A DNA stretch of 55,974 nucleotides, from positions 1 through 55,974 of the forward strand of contig JAQUHA010000024.1 of NCBI GenBank assembly GCA_028683855.1, given 5' to 3'. This stretch comes from Desulfuromonadaceae bacterium. GTDB lineage: Bacteria; Desulfobacterota; Desulfuromonadia; Geobacterales; Pseudopelobacteraceae. The notes under the pieces are model-generated. The model did not search any database and was not told the origin of the DNA. It saw only the letters and a program-made list of their open reading frames with translations. The position numbers and the translations under genes are program-made. Positions 1-22,374 of the stretch are shown piece after piece. Each line of letters starts with the position of its first letter. The first letter of the stretch is position 1.

Positions 1-1
1 G

Positions 2-124
2 TGGCGTCGTTCAGACCGTGATACCAACAACACCTTTATCTGGTATCTGAATGGTGCCACACCAACCGCTGCCAGTGCATATCTGCCGAACCAGGCGGCA
101 GCATGGCAGGCGGTCGGGAAATAG
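2..124 (+). CDS. C-terminal end of an FG-GAP/VCBS repeat protein (partial)
   Basis: Frame 2 is open from the window edge to a TAG at 122-124 and encodes the last 40 residues of a larger protein. The fragment has a W-R-R-S-D...F-I-W-Y-L-N-G pattern, as seen in FG-GAP/VCBS repeats, which build beta-propellers in secreted or surface proteins. The start lies outside the window, so length, signal peptide and repeat number are unknown. A strong terminator follows directly, so this gene ends its own transcription unit and is separate from the leftward lasso operon. The assignment rests on one repeat only. Confidence 0.6.
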   Translation, partial: WRRSDRDTNNTFIWYLNGATPTAASAYLPNQAAAWQAVGK

Positions 125-151
125 TATGGTAGTAGAGGAAAGTTGAACGTA

Positions 152-203
152 AAAGCCCCTGTTCGGAACAACAAGTATATGTTCTGGACAGGGGCTTTGT
201 TTA
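152..203 (+). terminator. Rho-independent terminator after the FG-GAP gene
   Basis: Left arm 152-162 (AAAGCCCCTGT) pairs with right arm 188-198 (ACAGGGGCTTT). A 3x3 internal loop and a second GAAC/GTTC helix sit inside. The right arm runs into T-rich sequence. The stem is near-symmetrical and could also work on the other strand. Confidence 0.85.
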
Positions 204-204
204 T

Positions 205-358
205 GGTTTGCGGTTTTTGTGGATGTTCTGAACGGAGTTGAGCTAGAAACTGGATTGGTTTGGAATATATATGGAATAGAGGTGGGTGGTATTATTACGG
301 TAGCGATTTTTGGTGTATTCAGCAGAACGTGAAGATTTACGCTGGTAGCCTGAACCTC
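205..358. other. Intergenic stretch without a recognisable gene
   Basis: Together with the two flanking hairpins this makes about 300 bases without a gene. No ORF with a plausible start and ribosome site is visible on either strand. The minus strand is open from about 360 to 254, but without a start or a family match. Confidence 0.5.
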
Positions 359-404
359 GGAAAACTAAAAGCCTCCAAAATAATTTGGAGGCTTTTAGTT
401 TTCC
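359..404 (-). terminator. Terminator of the lasso operon (bidirectional hairpin)
   Basis: A perfect 21-bp stem (359-379 with 384-404) has a 4-nt ATAA loop and a GCCTCC/GGAGGC core. It lies 22 bp downstream of the precursor peptide stop codon on the minus strand. T-rich arm ends on both strands suggest it can stop transcription from either side. Confidence 0.85.
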
Positions 405-425
405 GGAAGTAAATGGATGTTTAGG

Positions 426-548
426 CTAGGACGTTGCTCCACCTATACCATCAGCACCTCCACCAGCTATAAACATTGTTTGGGATGCTACACTACCTTT
501 TTTTAGCTCTGGTTTTGCCCATGCACCTGACGCGAATTGACTTTTCAT
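426..548 (-). CDS. Lasso peptide precursor (A)
   Basis: A 40-residue peptide follows a clear ribosome site (AAGGAG, 9 nt upstream of the ATG at 548) and sits 47 bp after the cyclase gene. The leader has the usual recognition pattern W10-x-x-P13-x-L15, then G18, five residues and T24. The L-to-G spacing is one residue shorter than the common YxxPxLxxxG form. Taking T24 as the conserved position -2, the core is FIAGGGADGIGGATS (15 residues). The only acidic residue is D8, which gives an F1-D8 macrolactam of eight residues and a tail GIGGATS. The peptide ends in serine, the residue phosphorylated by lasso kinases in paeninodin-type clusters, and a kinase gene opens this operon. Cleavage site and ring are inferred from family rules. 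Confidence 0.85.
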   Translation of the reverse strand: MKSQFASGAWAKPELKKGSVASQTMFIAGGGADGIGGATS

Positions 549-595
549 GGTAATTATCTCCTTATATCTGGTTTTTACTGCGAATTGACACTAGG

Positions 596-2497
596 TCAAC
601 GAATAAAATGCAAACCCACACCTGTTCCACGGGTGAGTACCATACCACAGACGGACGAGTGCAGCAAACTTTTTTTATCATTTTTATCATACAAAATTGT
701 CATTATTTTTGCCACATCAAGACAGGTTTTTGCAACCTCATTTTTTTCAATTTCTACCAGCACTGAAGAAAACGGTTGGTATTCTGCCTGCACTCGAAAG
801 GCTACATCCGCTGATTGCGCGCCGATCCTCGTATTGAAAATTACCTCTGCCGGCATACGGTCGATCATGGCGTGTCGGATCAAATTTCTTTTTTTTCCCT
901 GAGAAAAATACTGACGGTCTGGCACCTGCAGACAGAATTCTATTAGTCGGCGATCAATAGTTGGATCACGGACTTCTATATTATACGCTGCACCCAGTTC
1001 ATGCCACAGTGAGCCGACTATTGATTTACCTGGATGTAGTATCAGCAGTTGCATATGTGAATAATGTATCGACAGAAGCGTAGGGTCATGGCCATCGTCT
1101 GCCATCAAACCCGCAAGATTTATCTGACGGGCGAAATGAGGATTTATTGCCGAATAATCCAACCAGGGTTGTCCGCCCGATTTGATGTGCTGATGGTAGA
1201 AAATCCGTGCCGGTGTCAGCAGCGGTTTTAAAATCTGCCGCTTGAGTGTCAGCCAGGGATTTGCTTCTGCATGGCGGAGTTGGTGCAATGCTTCTTTGTA
1301 ACAACCGTTTTTCAGAAGTGAAAGGCCCTGACCGGAACCGGCGTAGGAAACAGTTCCGTTGCCGCACTGACCCGTCAGCAGTACCCCCACGCCACGATTT
1401 CTGGCTTGCGACAAGATGTCCTGTATCCAGTACTGATTGCTGGCCGCGTGGCCCGGTTCGTCATGAATCTGTAGTTGCATTCGAATGGCATCAAGAACGC
1501 TGGAGTTTTCTGATTTAGTTGCAATGTGCTCAATGTTATCACCGGCCATGCGGGCCGTAGCTGATGCAAACTCCCATTCATCACCGAATCTGTTCGGCCC
1601 TGCACCTACCGGCTCATATAAAGGCACCGACGTATAGGCGATGAGACTCTTTCCCTGTGCAGCCAGCAGTGGCGCTGCCAGGGCGGTGACCGAACCGGAA
1701 TCCAGTCCGCCGCTTAATGTTACTGCAATAGGCTTACTGCTGCGTAAGCGGCTCTGCACCGCATTACCATACAGATGCAGGAGTTCATCGACATATTCCT
1801 GATCGTTTTTACGATAGAGGAGCGGCAAGTTCTCCGGAAACCAGTATTTTTTGAGGGTTTGTTCCGTTTTGCCAACCAGCATGGTATGTGCCGGTGGAAT
1901 ACGGTGGATCTGCTCATGAGCCGTGCGCCGACCATCGCCGGGCCAGGAGGTGAGCACCTGGGCAATCCTGATCATATCCACATCTCGCGGTACATCATGC
2001 AGCGCCAGAATTGCTTTTTTACAGGAGGCAAACGCCAGATAATTGTTATTGTTAAAGTAGTACAATCCGGTGTTACCAAAGTGATCACGGGCAATAAACA
2101 GCTTTCTGGTGGTGTGATCCCAGGCGGCAAACTGCCAATCACCGTTGATATGATCAGGGCAATCCATTCCCCACTTCAGATAGGCATCAATCACCAGGGC
2201 GCTATCGGGAGTGGTGGCGTAATCGGCAGGAGCGTAGTCAAAGCTGCGAAGCAGTTCATCGCGGTTATCAAGTCGGGCATACGTAACGAGGGTAACATTA
2301 CCTTTTTTTACCGGCTGAACTTCATAACTATCCTCCGGCGTCACCCGCAGCAGCAGATGCCCCAGACCAACCGAACCTTCCTGCCACTGCCCCCCGCCAT
2401 CCGGCCCGTAATAGGCCATCGCTTCGCGCATGGCACCTAATGTTTCCGGCAGTACCGGTGCGCCATCAAAACGAACTATGCCGTATATTCCGCTCAT
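596..2497 (-). CDS. Lasso peptide cyclase (asparagine-synthetase-like C protein)
   Basis: The 633-residue protein has an N-terminal class II glutaminase-like domain (about 1-210) followed by an asparagine synthetase domain. The PPi-loop SGGLDS lies near residue 262. The N-terminus is MSGIYG, so the catalytic Cys2 of true asparagine synthetases is Ser here. This is normal for lasso cyclases, which adenylate the core Asp/Glu side chain and do not need glutaminase activity. It should close the F1-D8 isopeptide bond of the precursor encoded next door. The start overlaps the B2 stop (ATGA), and AAGGAAG lies just upstream of the ATG, so the two genes are translationally coupled. Confidence 0.92.
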   Translation of the reverse strand: MSGIYGIVRFDGAPVLPETLGAMREAMAYYGPDGGGQWQEGSVGLGHLLLRVTPEDSYEVQPVKKGNVTLVTYARLDNRDELLRSFDYAPADYATTPDSALVIDAYLKWGMDCPDHINGDWQFAAWDHTTRKLFIARDHFGNTGLYYFNNNNYLAFASCKKAILALHDVPRDVDMIRIAQVLTSWPGDGRRTAHEQIHRIPPAHTMLVGKTEQTLKKYWFPENLPLLYRKNDQEYVDELLHLYGNAVQSRLRSSKPIAVTLSGGLDSGSVTALAAPLLAAQGKSLIAYTSVPLYEPVGAGPNRFGDEWEFASATARMAGDNIEHIATKSENSSVLDAIRMQLQIHDEPGHAASNQYWIQDILSQARNRGVGVLLTGQCGNGTVSYAGSGQGLSLLKNGCYKEALHQLRHAEANPWLTLKRQILKPLLTPARIFYHQHIKSGGQPWLDYSAINPHFARQINLAGLMADDGHDPTLLSIHYSHMQLLILHPGKSIVGSLWHELGAAYNIEVRDPTIDRRLIEFCLQVPDRQYFSQGKKRNLIRHAMIDRMPAEVIFNTRIGAQSADVAFRVQAEYQPFSSVLVEIEKNEVAKTCLDVAKIMTILYDKNDKKSLLHSSVCGMVLTRGTGVGLHFIR

Positions 2498-2946
2498 GAT
2501 CTTCCTTTTGAAAAATACGATAACACGCGAAAACTTTCATGGTTTGGACCGCCGGTGACAATCCGGCTGCCGCAGCGGAGCCAGGCGTGAGCATTAAATG
2601 CTGCTCCTGTTTCCGCCGCCGCCACGCCAAAATACACCGTCCCGCGTACACCGCGCCGGCTCAACATCCACCATGCCGACAGCGCCTGCACCAGGCAGCG
2701 ACTTTGCCAGGGGGTGTGACGCGCCATCGTTTCTACCGCCCATCCGGTGCGTTGTGCGATCTCGTCCTGTGCTGCGCTCACAGCCGTGTCACTCTCCAGG
2801 CCGACCGTGCCAAGCTGCGCCGCAAGCTGTCGAAACGGTACGCATTTAATCAGGACTCGCGCCGTGAATAGGGCGCATAAAGCTTCCACTAATAGCACCT
2901 TATCTGCGGACGACAGGCAAAAAAAGCGGGATGCTTTACGAAACAA
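2494..2946 (-). CDS. Lasso leader peptidase B2 (transglutaminase-like)
   Basis: The 150-residue protein matches the lasso B2 (transglut_core3) family of cysteine proteases that cut the precursor leader after the conserved Thr at -2. Visible hallmarks are the Cys in SRCLVQAL (near residue 84), the His in NAHAWLRCG (near 119) and the RIVTGG strand. The start is a TTG inside the end of B1 (11-bp overlap), with GGAAGG about 8 nt upstream. It works with the separate PqqD-like B1, so this is a split-B system as in Gram-positive and many delta-type clusters. The N-terminal segment (about 15-35) is hydrophobic and may touch the membrane. Confidence 0.88.
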   Translation of the reverse strand: MFRKASRFFCLSSADKVLLVEALCALFTARVLIKCVPFRQLAAQLGTVGLESDTAVSAAQDEIAQRTGWAVETMARHTPWQSRCLVQALSAWWMLSRRGVRGTVYFGVAAAETGAAFNAHAWLRCGSRIVTGGPNHESFRVLSYFSKGRS

Positions 2947-3229
2947 CTATCAGACCTTCCGCATTCAATTCTTCAAGATAGGCTATGATGTCCGGGCCGC
3001 AGATGTCGGGTGTGACGTTGTATTCCTGTGACAGGAGGTCAATCAGGTCAGCCACGCTTGTGGGTGTTTCGATAAGCTCCCAGATGCGGCGTGCTGTCGC
3101 TTCCATGCCGTAATACGATCCCTGCTCAACGCTCATCAGGATGGTTTCGTCGTCAAGGTCGGTAGCGATAAGGTTGAGTGCTCTAACCACGGTTGCCTGG
3201 GGAGTGATGGGGGGCTGTACAGAATTCAT
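2936..3229 (-). CDS. PqqD-like leader-binding protein B1 (RRE)
   Basis: The 97-residue protein is a PqqD-family RiPP recognition element. The signature is the strand-helix pattern with ...GSYYGMEATARRIWELI followed by a helical SVADLIDLLSQEY segment. B1 proteins bind the YxxPxL part of the leader and hand the precursor to B2 and C. Here the W10-x-x-P-x-L motif of the precursor is the expected ligand. AAAGGAG lies 12 nt before the ATG, somewhat far. The gene starts 28 bp after the kinase stop and overlaps B2. Confidence 0.88.
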   Translation of the reverse strand: MNSVQPPITPQATVVRALNLIATDLDDETILMSVEQGSYYGMEATARRIWELIETPTSVADLIDLLSQEYNVTPDICGPDIIAYLEELNAEGLIVVS

Positions 3230-3257
3230 TGTGTATCCATTCTCCTTTCAAAAATAG

Positions 3258-4298
3258 TTACTGGGCGTTCCATTGCTGTTCAAGCAGATCAATCAGTTCT
3301 TCAATCCGCTCAGTATCCCGAGGTCGCTGAAGTTCGTACATCGTCGTTGCTTTCGCAATGTCAGCTGACATCTGCATGATATGCCCCTTGTTTTGAAAAC
3401 CGGGCAGATACAACAGGCGGTAGAGATTGCTAATCAAGAGGTTCACCCGGTCAAAGCCCTGCAGTTTATTCTGTGTTATTTCCGGGATGTCGTTGTCTGC
3501 CAACTGATAGATAGAGTGTAGCGGAAAGTTGTCAGTGCTGTAGGTCTGATTAAGCGGAATGACATATTTATCAACGTCATAACGAGCACCGCTAGTAGCG
3601 TCGGTAATGTCATCCAAACGTTCAAAAGCATCGCTGCAGAGCCTGATTTGCGGAAAAGCGGGAAGCACCCGGAAGCCGCTGCTGCCATCATTGGTAATGG
3701 CGCAGACATCATCGCTGAGCACGTAGTAGCCGCGACGTTTAAAGTGAGCAATAAGGGTCGATTTTCCTATGCCCTGCGGGCCGACAAAAATCATAACACC
3801 CAGTTTTGTCGCGATGGCGCTGCCGTGCAGCGGAAATAAACCGCGCTGATACAGGAGCGCACCCATTGCAGAGCCAAACAGAAACAGGCGGATTTTATCG
3901 CCGTCGGCACCAGGAAATGGTTCAACGATAATTTTCCGGCCATCGGTAACGTGATAGCGGGCAATGTCACGCACCGTCATCAGAAAGTTGTGTGGTGAGA
4001 CCTGAAAGAAGTCTGTTGCAAGGGTAGGTGCATGAAGCTGTTCTGCTACCGTTCCGATTGAAATGGTAACGTCCGGAGTAATACAGATTTTGTCCTTATT
4101 GCATCCACCGGGCGGTTCATAATAAGAATCGAAAAAAGGTTGTAGGCGCAAAAGCTGTAGTTCATCGATACCTTCTTGTGAATTTTTAAACATCGGTAAA
4201 GCGTGGAAGGTTTGAGTAGTGTTGTATAATGGTCTAAGATGCTGAAAATGACAAGTACATTTGCTCTTGAGAATATCACCTTGCCACATTCCACGCAT
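3258..4298 (-). CDS. HPr-kinase-like lasso peptide kinase (K)
   Basis: This is an HPr kinase/phosphorylase-fold protein with a P-loop GPQGIGKST after a HGSA strand, followed by a YYVLSDDVC segment. This is the arrangement of the lasso kinases (ThcoK/PadeK type) that phosphorylate the C-terminal Ser of lasso precursors. It lacks the N-terminal domain of classical HprK, and no HPr gene is nearby. It is first in the leftward operon. The start is uncertain: ATG at 4298 gives 346 residues, while ATG at 4193 (MFKNSQEG...) gives 311 and fits the family better, but neither has a strong ribosome site. The C-terminal ~60 residues are helical and unrelated to HprK. Confidence 0.8.
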   Translation of the reverse strand: MRGMWQGDILKSKCTCHFQHLRPLYNTTQTFHALPMFKNSQEGIDELQLLRLQPFFDSYYEPPGGCNKDKICITPDVTISIGTVAEQLHAPTLATDFFQVSPHNFLMTVRDIARYHVTDGRKIIVEPFPGADGDKIRLFLFGSAMGALLYQRGLFPLHGSAIATKLGVMIFVGPQGIGKSTLIAHFKRRGYYVLSDDVCAITNDGSSGFRVLPAFPQIRLCSDAFERLDDITDATSGARYDVDKYVIPLNQTYSTDNFPLHSIYQLADNDIPEITQNKLQGFDRVNLLISNLYRLLYLPGFQNKGHIMQMSADIAKATTMYELQRPRDTERIEELIDLLEQQWNAQ

Positions 4299-4491
4299 TC
4301 AACTACAATCCCACTCTGTCTACAAAAGAGAGGTTGTGGCACTTATGTCGAGATGGCAAATATTGATAACGATCCTTGTTTCCGACCAGAAGCAGTCTTC
4401 GTTTAACGCAAAACTTCCTGCTGTTTGAACTATGATTTTGTCATTCCAAAACAGTTGATAAATATTCTGACTTAACCTTATTGGATATTTT
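4299..4491. promoter_or_regulatory. Divergent control region between the lasso operon and the moxR operon
   Basis: Both long gene runs start from this 193-bp gap (192-300 bp, depending on the kinase start). It must hold promoters for both directions. It is AT-rich, but I could not pick a convincing -35/-10 pair for either direction. No regulator gene adjoins it. Confidence 0.5.
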
Positions 4492-5484
4492 ATGAAAGAT
4501 TGTTCGCATATTGAGAGTGTTGAATTAAATAAATGTGGAGAGCTGCTGAAAAACCTTGTCAGCAATATTGCTGAGGTGGTGGTCGGGCAAAATTACCTGA
4601 TTGAGCGTATTTTAGTGGCTCTGCTTGCCGATGGGCATCTGCTGATTGAGGGTGTGCCAGGTCTGGCAAAAACAACGGTAGTTAAAACTCTTGCAAGACT
4701 AATTGATGTACGTTTCCAAAGGATTCAGTTTACGCCCGATCTCTTGCCCGCTGATCTGCTTGGAACGCTGATATATAATCCTGTCGAGGGGGTGTTTACA
4801 ACCAGGAAGGGTCCGGTGTTTGCGAATATAGTGCTGGCTGATGAGATAAACCGTGCGCCGGCTAAGATCCACAGCGCTCTGCTTGAGGCAATGGAGGAGC
4901 GCCAGGTAACTATTGGCGAACATTCATACTGCCTGCCTGACCCTTTTCTTGTAATGGCGACCCAAAATCCTATAGAGCAGGAGGGGACTTATCCGCTGCC
5001 GGAAGCGCAGATGGATCGTTTTATGCTCAAAGCGGTTATAACGTATCCGACTCGTTTGGAAGAGCAGGAGATAATGCGGCGTGCTGCAATTGCGACAACT
5101 TCTTACAAACAGCTGCCACTGCTGCATCCGGATGATCTTTTGAGAATGCGTGCGCTTGTTGATACTGTCTATGTGGATGAAAAAATAGAGAAGTACATTC
5201 TTGATCTGGTTACAGCTACGCGTAATCCGGCTGCTTATGGTTTTGCTGATCTGGAAGCTTTTATTGGTTACGGAGCTTCTCCCCGGGCAAGCATATATAT
5301 GCTGCTGGCTGGTCGCGCACTCGCTTTCCTGCGGGGAAGGGGATATGTAGTCCCGCAGGATATCAAGGATATTGGACCTGATGTACTGCGCCATCGAATT
5401 ATAACTACCTACGAAGCTGATGCGGAAAACATTACGGTGGAACAGATAATAACCAGGCTTTTTGCTGAAACGGCTGTTCCGTAA
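4492..5484 (+). CDS. MoxR-family AAA+ ATPase
   Basis: The 330-residue protein is of AAA_3 type: Walker A GVPGLAKT near residue 62, Walker B VLADEINRAPAK near 120, sensor-1 MATQNPIEQEGTYPLPEAQ near 155, then a C-terminal AAA lid. MoxR ATPases act as chaperones that activate or insert cofactors into partner complexes containing VWA-domain proteins. The next five genes are the classical partners. It is the first gene of the long rightward run and starts at ATG without a strong ribosome site. Confidence 0.92.
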   Translation: MKDCSHIESVELNKCGELLKNLVSNIAEVVVGQNYLIERILVALLADGHLLIEGVPGLAKTTVVKTLARLIDVRFQRIQFTPDLLPADLLGTLIYNPVEGVFTTRKGPVFANIVLADEINRAPAKIHSALLEAMEERQVTIGEHSYCLPDPFLVMATQNPIEQEGTYPLPEAQMDRFMLKAVITYPTRLEEQEIMRRAAIATTSYKQLPLLHPDDLLRMRALVDTVYVDEKIEKYILDLVTATRNPAAYGFADLEAFIGYGASPRASIYMLLAGRALAFLRGRGYVVPQDIKDIGPDVLRHRIITTYEADAENITVEQIITRLFAETAVP

Positions 5485-5488
5485 GCTG

Positions 5489-6388
5489 ATGTCACTTAGT
5501 CAATCCACCATTAAACAAGCCAACAGAAGTCGACATCTGCAGATTTTGTCCACGCGCCTTGTTTCCACTCTCTTTGCCGGTACTTATAAAAGCGTTTTTC
5601 GTGGCAGAGGTATGGAGTTCGGGGAGTTGTGCGATTATCAGCCTGGTGATGATATTCGCAATATCGACTGGAATGTGACCGCCAGGAGCGGGAGACCATT
5701 TATAAAGCGTTTTGTCGAAGAGCGGGAGATGACAGTTATGATACTGCTTGATCGTTCCGCATCCCTGAACTGTCCATCTCCTGCTCGTGCAAAGTATGAT
5801 GCGGCTCAGGAGGTCTCTGCTATTCTCGCTACTGTTGCCGGACGTAATAACGACCGTGCCGGGCTAATTACTTTTGGAGAGGGTGTTCAGTGTTACATTC
5901 CGCCGGGTAAGGGGCTTCGTCATACCCGAAGGCTTATTACAGAAATTGCTTCTAACCGCTCTGCCGCTTCTGCGTCTGATCTGGCAGCGGCTCTCAATTA
6001 CCTGAATTCTGTGATACGACGGCCGGTTATCCTTTTTATAATATCAGATTTTATCTGTACCGATTTTACTGCTCCCCTCGCTTCCGCTGCACGGCGACAT
6101 GACACCGTTGCCATAGCGGTAAACGATCCTCACGATCTTAACCTCCTTGATGTAGGTCTGCTGCAGGTTGCAGATGCCGAAACCGGTCAGCGAAGAGTTA
6201 TTGATACAGGTTCCGTCAAAGTTCGTAGTGAGTATGCGCGTCTTGCGGCTATACGGATGGCAGATACTTACAAAACTGTAACTGCTGCCGGTGCAGAACT
6301 TTTGCCTCTTGCTACTACAGTTAATCCTGTGCAGGCTCTCAGCCGGTTTTTTCAGACACGACAGCGACGATCCAGAAGTTTAGCATAA
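5489..6388 (+). CDS. DUF58 domain protein
   Basis: The protein carries the DUF58 signature RDIDW-like segment PGDDIRNIDWNVTARSGRPF near residue 50 and a VWA-like fold with a degenerate MIDAS (LLDRSASL). These proteins pair with MoxR ATPases. The ATG at 5489, four bases after the moxR stop, is chosen over a TTG at 5462 that would overlap moxR by 23 bp. Either way translation is likely coupled. The function is not settled for the family; cytoplasmic location is inferred from the lack of membrane segments. Confidence 0.88.
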   Translation: MSLSQSTIKQANRSRHLQILSTRLVSTLFAGTYKSVFRGRGMEFGELCDYQPGDDIRNIDWNVTARSGRPFIKRFVEEREMTVMILLDRSASLNCPSPARAKYDAAQEVSAILATVAGRNNDRAGLITFGEGVQCYIPPGKGLRHTRRLITEIASNRSAASASDLAAALNYLNSVIRRPVILFIISDFICTDFTAPLASAARRHDTVAIAVNDPHDLNLLDVGLLQVADAETGQRRVIDTGSVKVRSEYARLAAIRMADTYKTVTAAGAELLPLATTVNPVQALSRFFQTRQRRSRSLA

Positions 6389-6391
6389 TAT

Positions 6392-6886
6392 ATGAAACCT
6401 CTTATAATCTCAGATATCAAAGAGTCGCCTGCTATTAATTATTTGCCCCCTTTTTTCGTAAGTGGAGCGATGATTTTAACGGGGTGTATTATTCTGATTA
6501 TTTTTTGGCGACGTGCCAGGTTGCCGGATAACCAGAAAAGTAAAGAGGTCGGTACACCTTTTGTTGATTCGGTGGAGCGACTAAGGGGAGAGTATGCTCT
6601 TGGAACCGTTTCACTGGATTTACTCTTCTCTCGTTTATCGGATCTTTTGATTGCAAGGCTGGTTAGCCCACCTCTAACTTCAAACTCTCAAACCACAGAT
6701 GAAATTCTTAATAGTATTCTCGCTGTTGATGGTATGAGTGCTGAAAATTTTGAGCAGGCTTCAGCCCTTTTTAAACTGTGTGATCAGGTTAAGTTTGCGC
6801 GTTACAGACCTGAAAAGCCGGAGATATGCGATGCCCTCTCAGCTGCGGTTGCTCTTATTGGACAAACTTCCGGAGCGGGACAATGA
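6392..6886 (+). CDS. Small membrane protein of the MoxR/Bat operon (DUF4381-like)
   Basis: The 164-residue protein has one clear transmembrane segment (about residues 19-40, ending in FWRRARLP) and a helical cytoplasmic part. In position and shape it corresponds to the DUF4381-type proteins between DUF58 and BatA genes. I do not see catalytic motifs. It starts 3 bp after the DUF58 stop, and its TGA overlaps the batA ATG, so it is firmly in the operon. Family assignment is by context and topology more than by sequence. Confidence 0.6.
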   Translation: MKPLIISDIKESPAINYLPPFFVSGAMILTGCIILIIFWRRARLPDNQKSKEVGTPFVDSVERLRGEYALGTVSLDLLFSRLSDLLIARLVSPPLTSNSQTTDEILNSILAVDGMSAENFEQASALFKLCDQVKFARYRPEKPEICDALSAAVALIGQTSGAGQ

Positions 6887-7878
6887 GGTTCCAAAATCCA
6901 GAGTTTTTTGCGCTTCTTTTTATAGCTCTGCCAATTCTTATTGCAAGAAGATCTGGAAAACAGCGAGCTCCATCAATTACCATTCCTGACGGCACCCTTC
7001 TGCTTCGTCTCCCGGAAACAATCTGCTCACGCGCTGTAAAGATGTTGCCATGGATGCGTCTGGCTGCTCTTCTTCTGCTTGTAGTCGCTCTTGCAAGGCC
7101 GCAGAGTATAATGCGTGAAACAAGAACATTGACAAAGGCGTCGGATCTTATGATTGCGCTTGATCTCTCATCGAGTATGCTGGCTGAAGACTCGGCTAAG
7201 GGTGGTAGTGTAAAAAACCGTCTGATGGTTTCTAAAGAGGTGCTCGGCTCTTTTCTGCAAAAACGGACCGGTGACCGGATAGGGTTGATCGCTTTTGCAG
7301 CTCTCCCATACTCTGCTGCCCCTTTGACGCTGGATCATGTCTGGTTAAATAGTGCTATAGAGCGACTGCAGGTAGGTGCGATTGAAGATGGTACGGCTTT
7401 GGGCGACGCTCTTTTAGCTGCTTTGAATCGCTTGAGGGATAAAAAAAACGATAGCAGTACTGTTATCCTTATTTCTGATGGTCGTAATAATACCGGTACA
7501 TCGCCTGAAGAAGCTGCTGCCGCTGCTGCCGCACTTGGTATTCGTGTTTATACTGTTGGCATCGGTTCAAAAGGGGGAGCCTTTTTTCCGGTTGATGACC
7601 CTTTGGGTGGCGTAAGTTATACCAGGATGGAGGCAGATCTCGACGAACCCACCTTGCGTGCGATAGCCGCCTCAACCGGTGGCAAGTATTTCCGCGCAGA
7701 TGATAAGCCAGGTATGGAAAAGGTGTTTCTTGATATTGATGCTTTGGAAAAGCAGAGGATAGAGCAGAAGTTATATTTTTCCTATCAGGAGCTATTTCCG
7801 TTTTGTGCTGTTACCGCTCTTCTGCTGTTTCTTGCAAGTGAGCTGCTTGGTATGACTCTCTTGAAGAGGATCCCCTGA
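6883..7878 (+). CDS. batA: BatA-like VWA-domain membrane protein
   Basis: The 331-residue protein has N-terminal membrane segments (about 8-22 and 55-70), a VWA domain with intact MIDAS (DLSSSM near 89, T-A near 172, SDGRNNTG near 203) and a C-terminal transmembrane helix (about 300-322). This is the BatA/Aerotolerance architecture. The VWA domain is predicted to face the periplasm between membrane anchors. The ATG at 6883 has GGAGCGGG just upstream and overlaps the previous stop, so the longer frame from 6826 is rejected. BatA and BatB probably form a complex activated by the MoxR ATPase. Confidence 0.88.
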   Translation: MRFQNPEFFALLFIALPILIARRSGKQRAPSITIPDGTLLLRLPETICSRAVKMLPWMRLAALLLLVVALARPQSIMRETRTLTKASDLMIALDLSSSMLAEDSAKGGSVKNRLMVSKEVLGSFLQKRTGDRIGLIAFAALPYSAAPLTLDHVWLNSAIERLQVGAIEDGTALGDALLAALNRLRDKKNDSSTVILISDGRNNTGTSPEEAAAAAAALGIRVYTVGIGSKGGAFFPVDDPLGGVSYTRMEADLDEPTLRAIAASTGGKYFRADDKPGMEKVFLDIDALEKQRIEQKLYFSYQELFPFCAVTALLLFLASELLGMTLLKRIP

Positions 7879-7879
7879 A

Positions 7880-8836
7880 ATGTTATGGGGTGCGCCGGAA
7901 TACGGTTGGTTGCTATTATTGCTCCTTCCGGTTTTTTTTATTGCCCGCCGGTCTAAACAGATAAGGCAGCGGAATTTATGTAAGTTGGGGAGCTGCGAAG
8001 AGAGACCAAAGAGTATTTTGATATTTCTGAGAGCCGTCTGTCGCGTGGCAGCTTTTTTGTTTGTTGTTTTGGCTCTATGCCGTCCGGAGTTAGGAACTGA
8101 GTCTGAATCTGTTGAGTCTATGGGAATAGACATTATTGTTGCTCTTGATACTTCACGCAGTATGCTGGCGGATGACTTGCTCCCTACTCGCCTGGACGCG
8201 GCAAAGAGAGAGATTGTTGAGCTTGTCAGCCGTTTGCATGGAGATCGTATCGGATTGGTCGCTTTTGCAGGGAGTGCTTTTCCGGTCTGTCCGCTGACAT
8301 TGGATTATGACGCATTTATACAGGTTCTGACTGAAAGCGGAAGTAATACCATCCCGCGTGGAGGAACCGACTTTTCTGCTCTGACAAAAGAGGTTGTTAA
8401 TGCTTTTGCAGGGACTGAACCCCGTAGTCGTCTGTTGTTGTTGGTAAGCGATGGTGAGGATCATGGCAGTTTTGATTCCAATTCACCTGGGCAGCTTCTT
8501 GAGAGCGGTATTACGATTTGCAGTGTGACTGCAGGAAGTGAAGCAGGTGGGATAATTCCACTCCATGATGGAGATTTTCTGAAAGATAAGTCTGGAAATA
8601 TTGTTCAAAGTCGTGCAAATCCATCGATTTTAAACTCTTTTTCAAATAGAAACATTATGCTTGGTTCCGATGTTGGTAAAGTAGCCGGATTATACGATGA
8701 AGTCAGACCGCTTATGCAGCAGCGGTCGATTAAAAACAGGCAACAGCGATATAAGGAATACTTTCAGCTGCCCCTTGCCGCTGCACTGCTGCTGCTTGTT
8801 GCAGAGGCTTTTCTCGCCTGCAGGATACGCGCATGA
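7880..8836 (+). CDS. batB: BatB-like VWA-domain membrane protein
   Basis: This second VWA protein (318 residues) has the same layout: N-terminal helices (about 8-22 and 52-70), MIDAS DTSRSM near 92, VSDGEDHG near 192, and a C-terminal helix ending in CRIRA. It starts one base after batA ends and overlaps the next gene by ATGA. Tandem BatA/BatB are usual in MoxR operons. The paired copies probably arose by duplication, as the VWA cores are clearly related (GLIAFA/GLVAFA strands). Confidence 0.88.
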   Translation: MLWGAPEYGWLLLLLLPVFFIARRSKQIRQRNLCKLGSCEERPKSILIFLRAVCRVAAFLFVVLALCRPELGTESESVESMGIDIIVALDTSRSMLADDLLPTRLDAAKREIVELVSRLHGDRIGLVAFAGSAFPVCPLTLDYDAFIQVLTESGSNTIPRGGTDFSALTKEVVNAFAGTEPRSRLLLLVSDGEDHGSFDSNSPGQLLESGITICSVTAGSEAGGIIPLHDGDFLKDKSGNIVQSRANPSILNSFSNRNIMLGSDVGKVAGLYDEVRPLMQQRSIKNRQQRYKEYFQLPLAAALLLLVAEAFLACRIRA

Positions 8837-9507
8837 GTAGACGATTTACTCTGATTCTCTTCTTCCTTGCGCTTGCGGCTGCACTCTTGTTTGATTTCAC
8901 CCGTCTAAACAGTTACAACAACTCCCTGGCTTTTGAAGAAGGGGTTGCAGATTATCGCACGGGAAAATACAGGGTGGCACTTGAAAACTTTACTGCGGTT
9001 AATTCCGCTGGAGACTCTCTTCTTCTGCATCGGGTTCGCTACAATGAGGGGAACTGTTTTGCACGTTTGGCAGAAGAGAGTGCTGCAATAAACAGCGTTG
9101 AAGCTGTCAGGTTGTATAATAATGCACTTAAAAGGTATCAGGATGCTCTTAATCATCTGCCTGGTGACCCCGATACACTCTATAATCAAAGTAGTGTGAA
9201 AGAAGCTATGGCTGATCTTCTGGCGGATCAGAATAAAAATGGAGCCGGAAACAAACTCTCCGGAGCACCTCTCTCTAGCTCGAACTCCGGATTAAAACTT
9301 AAATTAAATGAGACTGCAGATGCTGTAGAGAAGAATAATCAGTCAGCTGATTTCAAAAAAGATGGTAAGTCCGGATCAAAAAAAACTATGGGACTGGAGC
9401 AGGCTGAACGATTGTTGAATAAAAAACGGGGGAAGGTGTTGTTGCCGTCTGCCATCAAAACATTACCAGGCGGGAGTATGCAGGAGTTACCGGAAAAGGA
9501 TTGGTGA
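8833..9507 (+). CDS. TPR-containing BatC-like protein
   Basis: The 224-residue protein has an N-terminal membrane anchor or signal (about 5-20) and one to two TPR-like helical repeats (NSLAFEEGVADYRTGKYRVA; LYNNALKRYQDALNHLPGD), then a low-complexity Lys/Ser/Asn tail. BatC proteins with TPRs occur between batB and batD in MoxR operons. It overlaps batB by 4 bp and ends 6 bp before batD. The scaffold role is inferred. Confidence 0.75.
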   Translation: MSRRFTLILFFLALAAALLFDFTRLNSYNNSLAFEEGVADYRTGKYRVALENFTAVNSAGDSLLLHRVRYNEGNCFARLAEESAAINSVEAVRLYNNALKRYQDALNHLPGDPDTLYNQSSVKEAMADLLADQNKNGAGNKLSGAPLSSSNSGLKLKLNETADAVEKNNQSADFKKDGKSGSKKTMGLEQAERLLNKKRGKVLLPSAIKTLPGGSMQELPEKDW

Positions 9508-13842: not shown

Positions 13843-15009
13843 TTGTTGCAAAATTTCTGTGTCAACTATACGTTTCCTGTCATTTTTACCAGCGATGTTT
13901 TCTCACTTGAGAACGAAATTCTGGTTGATGTAATCAAATCAAGTGGAATGTCTCATAACCGTGCTCTGATTTTTATAGATAGTGAAGTCTTAAAAAGAAC
14001 AGATGGTTTGCTGGAAAAGATAAGCCGCTATGCGGAACGGCATTCGGCTCTGCTTGAGTTTGCAGCAGAGCCGAATGCCGTTCCGGGTGGAGAGCTTTGC
14101 AAAAATGAACATTGCGAGATTGAACGAATTCAGACTATGGTTGAGAAGTACAAGATCTGCCGTCATTCATTCATTATCGCAATTGGTGGTGGCGCTGTAC
14201 TTGATGCTGTCGGATATGCTGCATCGACATCGCATCGGGGTGTCCGGCTTATCCGTATTCCTACAACGGTATTGGCTCAGAACGATGCTGGTGTGGGTCT
14301 GAAAAATGGCGTAAATTTCTGTGGTAGAAAGAACTTTCTAGGTACGTTTGCTCCCCCTTTCGCAGTTATTAATGATAGTTGTTTCCTTGAGACCCTTTCG
14401 TCGCGCGATATGCGAGCCGGCATGGCAGAGGCTGTCAAGGTAGCTCTTATTCGGGATCGCGGATTCTTTGAAGTTCTCTACGAATCTCGTTTTGATCTGG
14501 CTTCTTTCAACCAGGCTACTGTCAAAGATATGATCTTTCGTTGTGCCGAATTGCATCTGTTGCATATATCAACCGGTGGTGATCCGTTTGAGAACGGCAG
14601 ATCACGACCATTGGATTATGGTCACTGGTCGGCGCACAAGTTGGAGGAGTTGAGTAACTGCGATTTGCGTCATGGTGAAGCTGTTGCCATTGGCATTGCT
14701 ATTGATTCCATCTATTCAAACAGGTGCGGTTTTCTTGGGGAGCCTGATCTAAATAAAATTTTAAATATCCTTGATAGCCTCGGGTTTAATCTGTTTCACC
14801 CTGCTGTTTTGCTTCTTGATGTGGAGCGCGCTCTTGATGATTTCAGGGAACATCTCGGTGGCGAGCTTTGTATACCGTTGTTGGCTGGAATAGGTGTGAA
14901 AATAGAGGTCAATGATATTGATCTGAATCTTATGAAACAGTGCGTTACTTTATTAGCTGAGAGAGTAGTTAATAAAGAGCCTTTGCCGGTTTTACCACTG
15001 TGTGCATGA
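13843..15009 (+). CDS. eboD: EboD, 3-dehydroquinate-synthase-like enzyme
   Basis: The protein is a sugar-phosphate cyclase-fold homologue of 3-dehydroquinate synthase. Conserved pieces are the NAD-binding GGGAVLDAVGYAAS (near 113), RIPTTVLAQNDAGVG (near 138), and metal ligands Glu in GMAEAVK, His in DYGHWSAHKLE and His in LRHGEAVA. In Ebo clusters EboD is thought to build or modify a metabolite that the other Ebo proteins move to the periplasm. It is not the housekeeping aroB by context. The listed TTG has its nearest ribosome site (AGGGAG, 13821-13826) 16 nt away. An in-frame ATT at 13834 would sit 7 nt from it and may be the real start. Confidence 0.85.
   Translation: MLQNFCVNYTFPVIFTSDVFSLENEILVDVIKSSGMSHNRALIFIDSEVLKRTDGLLEKISRYAERHSALLEFAAEPNAVPGGELCKNEHCEIERIQTMVEKYKICRHSFIIAIGGGAVLDAVGYAASTSHRGVRLIRIPTTVLAQNDAGVGLKNGVNFCGRKNFLGTFAPPFAVINDSCFLETLSSRDMRAGMAEAVKVALIRDRGFFEVLYESRFDLASFNQATVKDMIFRCAELHLLHISTGGDPFENGRSRPLDYGHWSAHKLEELSNCDLRHGEAVAIGIAIDSIYSNRCGFLGEPDLNKILNILDSLGFNLFHPAVLLLDVERALDDFREHLGGELCIPLLAGIGVKIEVNDIDLNLMKQCVTLLAERVVNKEPLPVLPLCA
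14033..14085. repeat. 22-bp perfect inverted repeat inside eboD
   Basis: Arm 14033-14054 (CGGAACGGCATTCGGCTCTG + CT) is exactly complementary to 14064-14085, with a 9-nt loop. It lies within coding sequence upstream of the conserved PGGE-x-x-KN segment. The transcript would form a very stable hairpin in either orientation. Confidence 0.9.
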
Positions 15010-15047
15010 AGCGGGTTTTGCCGGCGTACTGAAAAAAAGGGTTATAT

Positions 15048-15374
15048 ATGATAAAGAACAAACAGCAATTACCGATTCCGCTCTCTTCCAGTCAAATTCT
15101 GGATATGTCATTTCTTGAAAATAGGGCGCGCCTGCTTGAAATTGCAGCATTTATTGACAGGATTGAGCGTTCCGCTGATCCGGATACAGGAAAAGCGGAT
15201 TTCAGGTATAAGAGCTTTATTGAGGGGGTACGTCTGTTGCTTGATGATTCGGCTGCTGTTAAAACCTCAAGAATTCAAATAAATTTTAGTGATCCAACAA
15301 CCGAGCCTATTGCAAGCGCCATTAAACTTAAGGCTCATGGTGCATGGAGTGGAGAAACTAATGAAGGTTATTGA
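15048..15374 (+). CDS. Small Ebo-cluster protein (possible EboA counterpart)
   Basis: The 108-residue protein sits in the slot between eboD and eboB. It is mostly helical in its first half (FLENRARLLEIAAFIDRIER) and ends in a FSDPTTEPI segment and a GAWSGETNEGY tail. I cannot match it firmly to EboA, which is usually about twice as long, but position and conservation style suggest a functional Ebo component. There are no membrane segments or signal. Its end overlaps eboB by 14 bp. The function is unknown. Confidence 0.6.
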   Translation: MIKNKQQLPIPLSSSQILDMSFLENRARLLEIAAFIDRIERSADPDTGKADFRYKSFIEGVRLLLDDSAAVKTSRIQINFSDPTTEPIASAIKLKAHGAWSGETNEGY

Positions 15375-16164
15375 TCCTCACATTCACATGGTTTCCCGTA
15401 CTACGGACGATTATCTTGCCTTGGCATACGGTGGTATTCATACTGTTTCCGAACCATCATTCTGGCCCGGTTTCGACCGTTGCGGCGTGGATGGATTTCG
15501 TGATTATTTTCAGCAGTTAACCGTTGTTGAGCCTGCCCGTGCCGCCAGGTTTAAGATTCGACATTTCTGCTGGATTGGTTTAAATGCAAAAGAAGCCGAA
15601 AATACGAAAATTGGTGAGCAGGTTCTGGCTATTCTACCAGAATATCTTGACTCTCCAACTGCGTTAGGGATCGGCGAGGTTGGTCTTAACAAAAACAGTA
15701 AAAACGAGATTGCCATGTTTGAGCGTCAGGTCGAACTGGCTGCGGTCAGGAATGAATTGATGTTAATTCACACCCCGCATTTGGAGGATAAGCTGAAAGG
15801 GACGCGTATTATTATGGATATTTTACGCAATGAACCACGAATTATTCCGTCACGCGTCCTTATAGACCATGCAGAGGAACATACAATCGGAGAGATAAAG
15901 GATAATGGGTTCTGGTTCGGCTTGACTCTCTATCCTGATTCAAAGGGGAGTCCTGCTCGTGCTGTGGATGCCATAGAAATATTCGGTGCAGATAAACTAT
16001 GCATTAATTCATCTGCTGACTGGAGTGTCAGCGATCCGACAGCAACCTTGAAGACAGTAAATGAAATGCGTCGGCGCGGTCATCCGGATGATTTGATCAG
16101 GAGAATTTTCTACGATAATCCAGCTGACTTTCTTGGTCAGTCTCCCAAATTTTCTGTAGCGTGA
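15361..16164 (+). CDS. eboB: EboB, TatD-family metal-dependent hydrolase
   Basis: The 267-residue TIM-barrel hydrolase keeps the TatD metal ligands: HxH in DPHIHM, Glu in GEVGLN, His in LIHTPH, His in LIDHAEE and Asp in SSADWS. TatD relatives hydrolyse phosphoesters or amides; EboB is the cytoplasmic hydrolase of Ebo clusters. The ATG at 15361 follows AGTGGAG and is chosen over a long frame from 15289 that overlaps the small gene upstream. It overlaps eboE by GTGA. Confidence 0.85.
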   Translation: MKVIDPHIHMVSRTTDDYLALAYGGIHTVSEPSFWPGFDRCGVDGFRDYFQQLTVVEPARAARFKIRHFCWIGLNAKEAENTKIGEQVLAILPEYLDSPTALGIGEVGLNKNSKNEIAMFERQVELAAVRNELMLIHTPHLEDKLKGTRIIMDILRNEPRIIPSRVLIDHAEEHTIGEIKDNGFWFGLTLYPDSKGSPARAVDAIEIFGADKLCINSSADWSVSDPTATLKTVNEMRRRGHPDDLIRRIFYDNPADFLGQSPKFSVA

Positions 16165-18622: not shown

Positions 18623-18629
18623 TAACACT

Positions 18630-19343
18630 ATGTCACTATTTAAAGCTTATCTCGCTCTTTTCAGGGTCAGCAATCTTCCGACGGTCTGGAGCAATGTTCT
18701 GGCGGCATTTCTTGTCTCCGGAGAGACCTTCTCCTGGATAGTTGCAGCGCTTCTGATTATGGCAATGTCCCTATTTTACTCAGCTGGGATGGTGCTGAAC
18801 GATATTTGTGATGTAGAGTTTGATGCTGTGCAAAAAAAAAGTCGCCCGTTGTCATCCGGGATTATAACTCTGCTGGGCGCAAAGATGGTGCTTACACTGC
18901 TCTTTATCCTTGGTTTTGCTATTCTGCTCTTCCTCCCTAATCCTCTCTTGGCGGTAGTTGCAGGGATTGTCTTGTTTGGATTGATTGTTTTTTATGACAA
19001 ATACCACAAAGGGAATCCAACCTCCGTTTTTCTTATGGCTGGTTGTCGGCTGATGGTATATATGGTAGTTGCAACTGCTGTTAGTGGAACTGTTAACAAA
19101 GTTGTATTAACTGTTGCCTTATGTCAGTTCGCCTACATCATTTTTCTAAGTTGCGTCGCTCGCTATGAGAACGCCTGGCAACATACTATTTCATTTCCAC
19201 TGATTCCACTCCTGCTGGCTGCTATTTGTTTGGTTGACGGTCTCTCTGTCTCTTTGGCTCTGAAATCTCCAATATGGTTTGTCGGTGGATTTGCAGGATT
19301 TACAATGACTCTTGCAGCTCAAAAATATGTTAGAGGTGATTAG
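18630..19343 (+). CDS. eboC: EboC, UbiA-like membrane prenyltransferase
   Basis: The 237-residue polytopic protein (about 7-8 helices) has the UbiA motif NDICDVEFDAVQKKSRPLSS (near 53) and FYDKYHK (near 127) in place of the second Asp-rich motif. EboC may attach a lipid or polyprenyl group so that a metabolite can be moved or tethered at the membrane. The ATG at 18630 is preferred; a longer frame from 18573 runs inside eboF. Its stop directly abuts the ABC transporter GTG, showing tight coupling to export. Confidence 0.85.
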   Translation: MSLFKAYLALFRVSNLPTVWSNVLAAFLVSGETFSWIVAALLIMAMSLFYSAGMVLNDICDVEFDAVQKKSRPLSSGIITLLGAKMVLTLLFILGFAILLFLPNPLLAVVAGIVLFGLIVFYDKYHKGNPTSVFLMAGCRLMVYMVVATAVSGTVNKVVLTVALCQFAYIIFLSCVARYENAWQHTISFPLIPLLLAAICLVDGLSVSLALKSPIWFVGGFAGFTMTLAAQKYVRGD

Positions 19344-21161
19344 GTGATACGTAGAGCAAAAGATGAGCTGCTGAGATCTGTTCCACTGATTGGTAAAGGT
19401 ATCTTTCTGGTCTGGCAGGCTGCCCGGGGTTGGACAGTCGCCTGGGGTTTGCTGCTTTTAATTCAGGGTGTTATACCGGCGGTACAGGTCTATCTGACCA
19501 AGATGGCAGTTGACTTTCTCTCAGTAGATATCTCTCAGGTCACTTCTGCGGCTGTTTTAACACGGGCTCTTCCGCCAATAATCGCTATTGGACTCTTCTG
19601 GATTATAAGTCAGGTTGTTACAAGCCTTATCCGCTGGGTACGGGCAGCACAAACCGAGTTAGTTCAGGACTCGATCCATTCTCTGATTCACGATAAAGCG
19701 ATAGATCTTGATTTGGCTTTTTACGAAAATCCTGAGTCATACGATCTTCTGCATCGTGCCAGAGTTGATGCACTGTCACAGCCTATAGCGCTTTTGGAAA
19801 GTGTTGGTGTTGTGTTGCAGAACAGCGTAACCCTGCTCGTATTGGCTGGTATGATTGCTATGTATGCCTGGTGGATGCCTTTTCTCCTAATTGGCAGCGC
19901 CCTGCCGGGACTATGGTCAGTCAGCCGATACGTTCTGCGCGAACATAATTGGCGCCTGCTTAATACCGCTAACGAACGACGCTCCCGCTACTATGACTGG
20001 CTGTTAACCGACAGGAATAGTGCAGCTGAGATGCGATTATTCGATCTTGGTGTCTATCATAAGAGGTTGTTTCAGAAACTGAGATCAACATTGAGGGAGG
20101 GACGACTTAAGCTGGTTCGAGATGAGATGAAATCTGAGCTGTTTGCCGGATCAATTGCGTGGTTAGGTGGAATTGCTGGAATTGTCTGGCTTCTTATGAG
20201 GATTTCCCGAGGCTTGGCTAAGCTTGGAGATTTAGTTCTATGTTATCAGGCATTTCTGCAGGGGCAGAAATTACTCCGCTCTCTCCTTGAAAGTGCCGGC
20301 AGAATCTATCGTAGTACCCTGTTTTTGGAAAATTTGTTTCAATTTCTCTCTGCGAAACCTTTTCTTGCTATTCCGGAAAAAAAGTTGCCTCTCCTACCGT
20401 ATCTGAACCAAGGGATACGTTTTGAAGAAGTAACTTTCCGTTATCCCGGAAGCCCGTTCAATGCCCTTGATAATTTCTCATTGGATTTGCCGGCTGGAAA
20501 ATCCACTGCAATAGTTGGACATAACGGAGCTGGTAAAAGTACTTTGATTAAACTGCTATGCAGGTTTTATGACCCACAAACGGGTAAAATACTTATTGAT
20601 AATAATGATGTTAAGGAGCTTGACCCTTCAGAGCTGCGTAGATCAATTACGGTACTTTTCCAGGAGCCGGTACGATACCACACTACCGCTTCAGAAAACA
20701 TAGCTATGGGTGATCTTACAGCACTTGGAGACCAAGGCAGGATTCAAGCTGCAGCAGTCGCTGCAGCTGCTGCAGCTCCGATAGAGCGGTTGTCTAATGG
20801 CTATGAAACGGTTTTAGGTAAATGGTTTGGAGGAGCTGAGTTGAGCGTAGGCGAGTGGCAGAGGTTGGCTTTAGCCAGAGCTTTTCTGCGTAATGCCCCT
20901 ATCATTGTTCTGGACGAGCCGACAAGTGCCATGGATTCATGGGCAGAGGCTGATTGGCTGAACCGTTTTAAGCAACTGACGGCGGGACACACAGCACTTA
21001 TGATTACTCATCGTTTTACCACTGCTATGTATGCGGATATTATTCATGTTATGGAAAGTGGCAAAATAATTGAGTCTGGTACTCACGAACATTTAATCTC
21101 AATCGGAGGGCATTATGCTGAGTCATGGCAGTCTCAGGTTAGGGAGATGAAATATGAATGA
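19344..21161 (+). CDS. Exporter-type ABC transporter (fused TM and ATPase)
   Basis: The 605-residue half-transporter has an N-terminal six-helix domain (about 25-330) and a nucleotide-binding domain with Walker A GHNGAGKST (near 392), signature LSVGEWQRLALARAF (near 503), Walker B IIVLDEPT and switch ITHRF. It lacks an N-terminal peptidase domain. Such ABC proteins are the usual lasso D exporters, and no other transporter is present for the lasso operon; it could also export the Ebo product. A run of nine Ala codons lies near residue 474. The GTG start abuts eboC, and the end overlaps the next gene by 8 bp. Confidence 0.88.
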   Translation: MIRRAKDELLRSVPLIGKGIFLVWQAARGWTVAWGLLLLIQGVIPAVQVYLTKMAVDFLSVDISQVTSAAVLTRALPPIIAIGLFWIISQVVTSLIRWVRAAQTELVQDSIHSLIHDKAIDLDLAFYENPESYDLLHRARVDALSQPIALLESVGVVLQNSVTLLVLAGMIAMYAWWMPFLLIGSALPGLWSVSRYVLREHNWRLLNTANERRSRYYDWLLTDRNSAAEMRLFDLGVYHKRLFQKLRSTLREGRLKLVRDEMKSELFAGSIAWLGGIAGIVWLLMRISRGLAKLGDLVLCYQAFLQGQKLLRSLLESAGRIYRSTLFLENLFQFLSAKPFLAIPEKKLPLLPYLNQGIRFEEVTFRYPGSPFNALDNFSLDLPAGKSTAIVGHNGAGKSTLIKLLCRFYDPQTGKILIDNNDVKELDPSELRRSITVLFQEPVRYHTTASENIAMGDLTALGDQGRIQAAAVAAAAAAPIERLSNGYETVLGKWFGGAELSVGEWQRLALARAFLRNAPIIVLDEPTSAMDSWAEADWLNRFKQLTAGHTALMITHRFTTAMYADIIHVMESGKIIESGTHEHLISIGGHYAESWQSQVREMKYE

Positions 21162-22374
21162 TGCTGTGCAGGTTTTTCCGCAATATATTAAATTATCTAA
21201 TGAATTCAGGCTATTGGTGGCAGCTTCATGGATGGCTCCATCTGAATATTCGGCTACTCAGGCTTCTACTATAAAGTCAATCTGCAGAGCTTGTAATATT
21301 GACTGGGATCAATTTTTGATATTGGTAGATCGTCATAGAATACCAGCGCTTGTCTATAACTCATTGCAGAAAAATGCTGCTGATCTTGTCCCCGAACAAA
21401 CTGTCAAATTATTAAAAGAGCGCAGCACTAGATCACGTTTTCAGGCGATGCGCGATTCTAGTGAGCTTGCGATGCTTCTTAAGATTCTTGCATCCAACAG
21501 TATTAAGGTTATTCCTTTAAAAGGTGTTGTTCTATCACAACAACTTTTTAATGATCCTTGTCTCCGGCACTTAAAAGATCTCGATATTATGGTTTGTCCG
21601 GAGAATATTGATGCAACTGATCAATTATTGAAAAAAAATGGGTATGTTAATATTATTCCAGGCATTGAACTTGCTGAAGATCTGAAAAACTACTTACATA
21701 AAAATTCTCACCATTTTGTATACAAGAACCCTTCAAGCGGTCTTATAATTGAACTACACTGGCGAGCCGGGCTTTGGTCCGCTAAACAGACAAGGCAGTT
21801 ATGGGAACATAGCATCGACGAAAGCTGGTTTGGTGCGCCGGTCATTGTTATGAATCCAGTCTATAGATTGTTATACCTCTGTGAACATGGCGCCGAGCAC
21901 AAGTGGTTCCGATTAAAGTGGTTAAGTGATACAGCTCACTTGATTGGACTGCTTACAGATGCGGAGTGCAAAGAGCTTTTGATTCTAGCTGAAGAGCTTG
22001 ACATTAAGAACGGGTTGGCGCAGATGCTTTTACTCCTTAACTGGCTTTACGGAATTACATTGCCGAAACCTTTTCTATCACTTATGCAAGAGAGAGGTAT
22101 ATATCGGTCTCTTGCGGAGTCTGCTTTGACCGGAATGCTCTTAAATGATGAGGATGTTTTGGGCGGCGGCAAACCTTTCGTCTCAATAAGAAGGGCTTTT
22201 TATATAATGCAGCTTAAGCCTAATATGCCTAAACGTGATGTCCTGAGAAGTTTGTTTGTCTGTGAAGCAGATATGATCTCTGTTCCACTGCCACCCGGTT
22301 TATTTTTTCTTTATATCCCATTGCGTCCAATACTCTGGTTGAAGCGATACTTTCTTGCTCGAAAACAGTTCTGA
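21154..22374 (+). CDS. Nucleotidyltransferase-fold protein (NTP_transf_5)
   Basis: The 406-residue protein carries the NTP_transf_5 signature: IPLKGVVLSQQLFNDPCLR (near 120), DLDIMV (near 141), IELHWRAGLW (near 198) and YLCEHGAEHKW (near 244). This family regularly accompanies lasso clusters that contain an HPr-like kinase; in the pseudomycoidin cluster such a protein (PsmN) was linked to sugar addition on the phosphorylated tail. Here it is the last gene of the rightward run, overlapping the ABC gene, about 17 kb from the lasso kinase. A tailoring role on the phospho-serine is inference. Confidence 0.8.
   Translation: MNDAVQVFPQYIKLSNEFRLLVAASWMAPSEYSATQASTIKSICRACNIDWDQFLILVDRHRIPALVYNSLQKNAADLVPEQTVKLLKERSTRSRFQAMRDSSELAMLLKILASNSIKVIPLKGVVLSQQLFNDPCLRHLKDLDIMVCPENIDATDQLLKKNGYVNIIPGIELAEDLKNYLHKNSHHFVYKNPSSGLIIELHWRAGLWSAKQTRQLWEHSIDESWFGAPVIVMNPVYRLLYLCEHGAEHKWFRLKWLSDTAHLIGLLTDAECKELLILAEELDIKNGLAQMLLLLNWLYGITLPKPFLSLMQERGIYRSLAESALTGMLLNDEDVLGGGKPFVSIRRAFYIMQLKPNMPKRDVLRSLFVCEADMISVPLPPGLFFLYIPLRPILWLKRYFLARKQF

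Follow-up and report, generated by a model that had tools for sequence, protein, structure and literature searches.

A probable precursor of a kinase-tailored lasso peptide, with a rare Phe1 core, in a Desulfuromonadaceae contig

Organization of the locus

The window analyzed here is an entire contig (C1) of 55,974 bp, from a genome of 3.47 Mb in 67 contigs. Near its start, on the reverse strand, is an operon of the order K-B1-B2-C-A, with a G+C content of 50.2% vs. 45.5% for the window as a whole. K (3258..4298) aligns with HPr-kinase-like lasso kinases, and B1 (2936..3229) encodes a PqqD-like RRE (PF05402, 69.3 bits, cut-off 23.4; NF033536, 76.9 bits, just below the cut-off of 80). B2 (2494..2946), which overlaps B1, encodes the leader peptidase and is the single match in the whole genome to model NF033537 (94.3 bits, cut-off 33). 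C (596..2497), overlapping B2 in turn, encodes a 633-aa asparagine synthetase-like lasso cyclase starting Met-Ser and matching PF00733 and PF13537 over cut-off; of the NCBIfam models it scores best with the lasso cyclase NF033535, and because the score (357.6 bits) is below the 525-bit cut-off, C is assigned at family level only. A cyclase-only scan of the collection of genome contigs confirmed no locus. Divergent from the operon is a set of MoxR, DUF58 and VWA/BatA-like genes (4492-9507), and translations read at 48013-53741 resemble a type I restriction-modification system.

The last gene of the operon, A (426..548, reverse strand), lies 47 nt after C and consists of 40 codons from an ATG start, with the product MKSQFASGAWAKPELKKGSVASQTMFIAGGGADGIGGATS. 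A ribosome-binding site, AAGGAGAT, is present 7 nt 5' of the ATG (556..563, reverse strand). The initial annotation had given the coordinates, strand and sequence of this ORF exactly, and the ribosome site, the WxxPxL recognition motif (here WAKPEL), the Thr at -2 and the single Asp, which is the sole acid of the core, are all as it described; its remark that the ORF is too short for gene calls was mistaken, the 40-aa protein being present in the protein collection (P0001, on two contigs). A perfect 22-bp inverted repeat with a 4-nt loop (358..405, strand unassigned) begins 20 nt past the A stop, and is by its position a possible operon terminator. It is absent from the terminators listed by a promoter/terminator scan, whose yield was barely above chance (9 vs. 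5.9 and 8 vs. 4.6 expected); Rfam at the gathering threshold had no match in positions 1-5000.

One possibility is that the ORF is open by chance and is no gene: it is short, and a single-sequence search with the precursor matched only itself. Against this are the ribosome site, the position in the operon, and 117 relatives retrieved by profile, though the window precursor was itself among the six profile rows. Short ORFs with the pattern aromatic-xxPx-aliphatic..T..acid are moreover expected by chance at 0.015 per 2.5 kb, or 0.375 per window (first-order random sequence, 400 shuffles); one other match was found in the whole window, inside an opposite-strand ORF (31201-31425, reverse strand). 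We regard a chance origin as extremely improbable: the 40-aa ORF is real, and its best reading is that of a lasso-peptide precursor, as proposed at the outset and supported by the operon context and by 117 relatives of like anatomy. A better precursor elsewhere, named initially as evidence that would tell against this, was sought across the genome by means of a single precursor profile and a single B2 model; neither a second precursor of the A type nor a second B2 was found.

The precursor family

A profile built from six precursors (the window's, L044, L048, L050 twice, and L040) retrieved 118 peptides, the window's among them, out of 127 candidates. This is a large family (relatives P0122-P0238), mostly with 13-15-aa cores: 13 residues in 40, 14 in 33, 15 in 26, 16-18 in 18, and 7 in one. 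First core residues are varied, with Ala and Asn in 31 each, Gly in 21, Ser in 10, His in 7 and Thr in 5, followed by Phe and Leu (3 each), Tyr and Glu (2 each), and Ile, Val and Lys (1 each). With positions counted from the motif Trp (the Trp and Pro anchor the count, and are hence uninformative), Lys is found at W+7 in 118/118, Thr at W+14 in 117/118, and Ala at W+15 in 117/118, the window alone having Met there; its leader is atypical at W+8 to W+13 as well. Conservation of the leader is partly built in, since the 118 were gathered with a leader-rich profile; the fall in conservation where leader meets core, and the conservation of the last residue (Ser in 116 of the 118), are less exposed to this bias.

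Thirty-two loci were annotated, of which 16 yielded a precursor; none was accepted in 14 (L035, L038, L039, L041, L043, L045-L047, L049, L051, L076, L079, L085, L086), and two (L042, L087) matched no query gene. L086 has a possible Tyr-type precursor. Among 20 precursor ORFs picked by eye (the window's, and 19 from pattern lists), 14 were aligned, each ending in Ser. The remaining six (L036, L037, L077, L078 twice, and L080) end in Gln, Lys, Pro, Gly, His and Val, and come from loci with two kinase matches. Two HprK-like matches occur at L036, L037, L077, L078, L079 and L080, side by side except at L077; L079 gave no precursor, so that the non-Ser ends represent the other five two-kinase loci. 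They suggest another phosphorylation site or role at these loci.

Leader, core and start register

In the favored register, the product splits into a 25-aa leader, MKSQFASGAWAKPELKKGSVASQTM (474..548, reverse strand), with W(-16), P(-13), L(-11), T(-2) and M(-1) placed by motif and family alignment, and a core, FIAGGGADGIGGATS (429..473, reverse strand), with a predicted F1-D8 ring and the tail GIGGATS. Ser15, the core's one Ser, is the predicted phosphorylation site; Thr14 is the only Thr, and there is no Cys. This register is favored because of the step in entropy after W+15, from 0.07 bit there to 2.84 at W+16 over the 118 peptides, and because of the positions of the ring acid: with the core starting at W+16, an acid is found at position 7-9 in 116/118 and at 8 or 9 in 115/118.

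Another possibility is that the same lasso system uses a different start, either Ile1 with a 7-residue ring or Met1 with a 9-residue ring. An Ile1 start would place the motif Trp at -17 and so recall BsfA, whose motif spans -17 to -12 with Tyr at -17 (PMC10368454), and natural 7-residue rings exist in the xanthomonins; the Gly found at W+17 in 77/118 also resembles Gly1, and a start at W+17 likewise leaves an acid at 7-9 in 116/118. The Thr(-2) rule and the location of the entropy step after W+15 argue against both. A start at W+17, furthermore, keeps an acid at 8 or 9 in just 32/118, leaving 86 without one, while a start at W+15 has an acid at 7-9 in 97/118, leaving 21 without (at 8 or 9, 96/118). 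The family comparison thus favors F1...D8; its advantage is clear against the earlier start and moderate against the later, and an alternative register seems improbable.

The Phe1 core and its relatives

Among the 118, Phe is the first core residue in three, the window included: rare, and recurring. The initial description of the core as unusual therefore stands for its aromatic first residue and holds less well for its Gly-rich ring, Gly being frequent at core positions 2-6 in the relatives. The uniqueness of the Phe1 core is itself weakened by the existence of the other two, P0147 (FTTGSGADGIGGAGS), identical to the window core at 11/15 positions, and P0136 (FQTGSGADGLGGSGS), identical at 9/15; of the 25 relatives with 15-aa cores that were compared, none of the others exceeds 6 shared positions. 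From the Trp to -1, the window leader shares 7/16 residues with each of the two. In these Phe1 comparisons the core has thus changed less than the leader, which is what one would expect from selection acting on the core. A search with P0147 of 397 genomes drawn from the order of genome G527 gave matches in four, none with Phe1. No published Phe1 lasso peptide was found in searches restricted to open-license literature; the residues concerned in PMC13352647 and PMC8498205 were Phe10 and Phe19, with no Phe1 core.

These peptides add a Phe1 core, with three natural homologues, to the kinase-tailored lasso peptides. With more than 100 precursors, varied first residues and mostly 13-15-aa cores, the family is also a test set for what lasso cyclases will accept, and the same set could probe how a thread lacking a bulky plug is held.

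A detached transporter and nucleotidyltransferase

Two further candidate genes lie 15-17 kb from the operon, in the other direction of transcription: an ABC transporter (19344..21161, forward strand), a candidate exporter with counterparts of 52-76% identity in 11 lasso loci and weaker ones in two, and a nucleotidyltransferase with an NTP_transf_5 domain match (21154..22374, forward strand), a candidate N protein (cf. PsmN and BsfN). They directly follow a UbiA gene, at the end of a cluster (13843-22374) of 3-dehydroquinate synthase-like, TatD-like, TIM barrel, phosphodiesterase and UbiA genes, which we take to resemble the ebo genes.

In four of nine acidobacterial kinase-lasso clusters (L044, L045, L046, L050 among L043-L051), the K-B1-B2-C genes lead into an ABC transporter and an NTP_transf_5 gene. 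Neither was found within 0.9 and 2.0 kb after C at L047 and L049, and the sequences of L043, L048 and L051 end too soon after C to inform on this. Among 76 genomes of the family, six have the nucleotidyltransferase at E <= 1e-15; all six belong to the 13 whose PF13471 (B2-type) match exceeds the cut-off, which ties it to lasso systems. The pair may also have a role outside lasso clusters: in genome G013 (contig C11, 3031-7596, L100), an ABC transporter 78% identical and an NTP_transf_5 gene 38% identical to the window's are present with another ORF between them, on a contig with no match to K, B1, B2 or C. In pseudomycoidin, PsmN is reported to be necessary for a hexose on the phosphoserine, a host glycosyltransferase not being excluded (PMC9266682).

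The kinase and its frame break

Assignment of K to the HPr-kinase-like enzymes draws on several comparisons. Its match to Hpr_kinase_C is weak (17.7 bits, cut-off 33.3), and the kinase profile matches HPr kinases in the PDB at E 9.6e-05. When P0002 was aligned with 26 relatives, the His, the P-loop Lys and the Asp-Asp were invariant in every row; the same His-Lys-Asp-Asp residues are reported to be essential in such kinases (PMC9266682).

The K frame is broken in a homopolymer at about 4130-4140 relative to P0002. This call is based on the split of the ORF, the N-terminus MNYSFCAYNLF being read in ORF 4046-4342 and the rest in 3258-4298; on P0002 itself, an uninterrupted 302-aa protein from a 5,180-bp contig, 100% identical over 84% of the window ORF; and on the whole-genome kinase-profile match, which begins at profile position 12 and whose single TAA is the gene's own stop. 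The break may be a sequencing error, a strain difference or slippage; the catalytic residues are downstream of it, inside an open 346-aa frame. A product 80 Da heavier, the mass shift proposed initially for a phosphorylated peptide, requires a working kinase and is hence affected by the broken frame in the assembly.

Is the cluster decaying, with its kinase lost, its leader drifted and no modified peptide made? The frame break, the divergence of leader positions W+8 to W+13 from the family pattern and the detached exporter would all fit such a history. A, B1, B2 and C, however, are all open, the core still matches that of P0147 at 11/15 positions, and the existence of an uninterrupted K in P0002 means that the break may be a sequencing slip. 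Decay appears unlikely in view of these points.

The tail and the locking of the thread

Xanthomonins, with their 7-residue ring, are among the nearest known precedents for short tails. The window tail, GIGGATS, has seven residues, with no aromatic plug and Ile10 as its only large residue, so that the initial observation of no bulky plug apart from Ile is upheld. Tails in the family (116 peptides) have five residues in 44 and six in 40; Phe, Trp, Tyr, His, Arg and Lys are all missing from 55/116, and 102/116 hold at least one of these or of Ile, Leu, Met, Gln and Glu. Reliance on bulky side chains is typical of class II lasso peptides (PMC13352647, PMC6784204), and lasso peptides are usually 16-23 aa long (PMC4289311).

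One reading of these figures is that the peptide is cyclized by C and left unthreaded, as a branched-cyclic macrolactam with a short flexible tail. The absence of an aromatic residue from the window tail, the 84/116 family tails of only 5-6 residues, the 55/116 without any of the first six residues listed, and the usual length of lasso peptides given above would be consistent with this. On the other side, the window has the lasso enzyme set, the plug could be Ile10 or a modified Ser15, and 102/116 tails hold at least one residue from the wider list. Enzymes related to the lasso set, moreover, make threaded products. An unthreaded product is a minority possibility, and we consider it rather unlikely.

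A more speculative idea, and an improbable one, is that in this family the tail is too short and its residues too small for an amino-acid plug, and that the stopper would be the C-terminal Ser itself, carrying polyphosphate or a sugar phosphate; the kinase and the nucleotidyltransferase would then take part in making the lock rather than add a decoration. The function of lasso phosphorylation has been described as unresolved (PMC9266682), and becomes testable with a compact set of precursors such as this one. In known systems, PadeK, ThcoK and SyanK phosphorylate the C-terminal Ser of the linear precursor (PMC9266682, PMC8498205), while BsfK phosphorylates the ring residue Ser3 and not the C-terminus, its precursor ending in Asp (PMC10368454).

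A proposed route to the product

Taken as a whole, the evidence makes it probable that the product of 426-548 (reverse strand) is a precursor from which B1, K, B2 and C make a kinase-tailored class II lasso peptide. (The likelihoods given here and to the other explanations overlap, and need not add up to one.) In published systems the linear precursor, its leader bound by B1, is phosphorylated by K at the C-terminal Ser, cut by B2 after residue -1, and closed into a ring by C (PMC9266682, PMC8498205, PMC10368454, PMC5067487). What the sequences themselves show are the genes and motifs, the conserved leader/core boundary and C-terminal Ser, and the Phe1 subfamily. For the window peptide we infer each of these enzymatic steps, together with threading and export: B1 would bind the leader via WxxPxL, K would phosphorylate the C-terminal Ser15 on the linear precursor, B2 would cleave after Met25, with Thr at -2, and C would join the Phe1 amine to Asp8, forming an 8-residue ring around a 7-residue tail. 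Export may fall to the detached ABC transporter, and through the nucleotidyltransferase the phosphate may come to carry a sugar. The most likely product would be a threaded F1-D8 macrolactam, phosphorylated on Ser15 and possibly sugar-modified.

Comparison with known systems and possible origin

In having B1 and B2 genes, a Thr at -2, a C-terminal Ser and an HPr-kinase-like K with His-Lys-Asp-Asp, the window system resembles those of paeninodin, ThcoA and SyanA (PMC9266682, PMC8498205); it is unlike them in its Phe1, its 15-aa core with a 7-residue tail, and the position of A as last gene in the operon. The combination of a kinase and a candidate nucleotidyltransferase gene recalls pseudomycoidin (PsmK, PsmN; PMC9266682), though in the window the nucleotidyltransferase, which may or may not act on this peptide, lies about 17 kb from the operon. 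BsfA of Bradymonas sediminis has a similar aromatic-xxPxL leader and the gene types K, N, B1, B2, C and D, but in one compact cluster, and with Tyr(-17), Ile(-2), Gly1, phosphorylation on Ser3 and a C-terminal Asp (PMC10368454), where the window has Trp(-16), Thr(-2), Phe1, a C-terminal Ser, and the D and N types detached. The first residue of the window core also differs from that of paeninodin, which is Ala1.

With the WxxPEL..ITA family of 118 peptides, the window shares the leader motif, T(-2), an acid of the D8/D9 type and the C-terminal Ser, and with 2/117 relatives its Phe1: this is a lasso precursor family of more than 100 in which a Phe first residue is rare but recurring. Predicted delta-proteobacterial lasso clusters include Gura_1351 of Geobacter uraniireducens and Ppro_0050 of Pelobacter propionicus (PMC4289311); a figure legend in that paper states that precursor annotation was in some case not conclusively possible.

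The closest parallels in gene order are the acidobacterial clusters L043-L051, with K-B1-B2-C in 8/9 loci (L051 is cut off) and a precursor recognized in 3/9. They are unlike the window in host lineage, in a leader from which the window's has diverged at W+8 to W+13, and in the transporter, none lying directly after the window C. Transfer of the operon from an acidobacterial lineage, or sharing with one, is plausible: the window K is 42-49% identical to those of the nine acidobacterial records, vs. 24-39% to those in loci of its own order or phylum.
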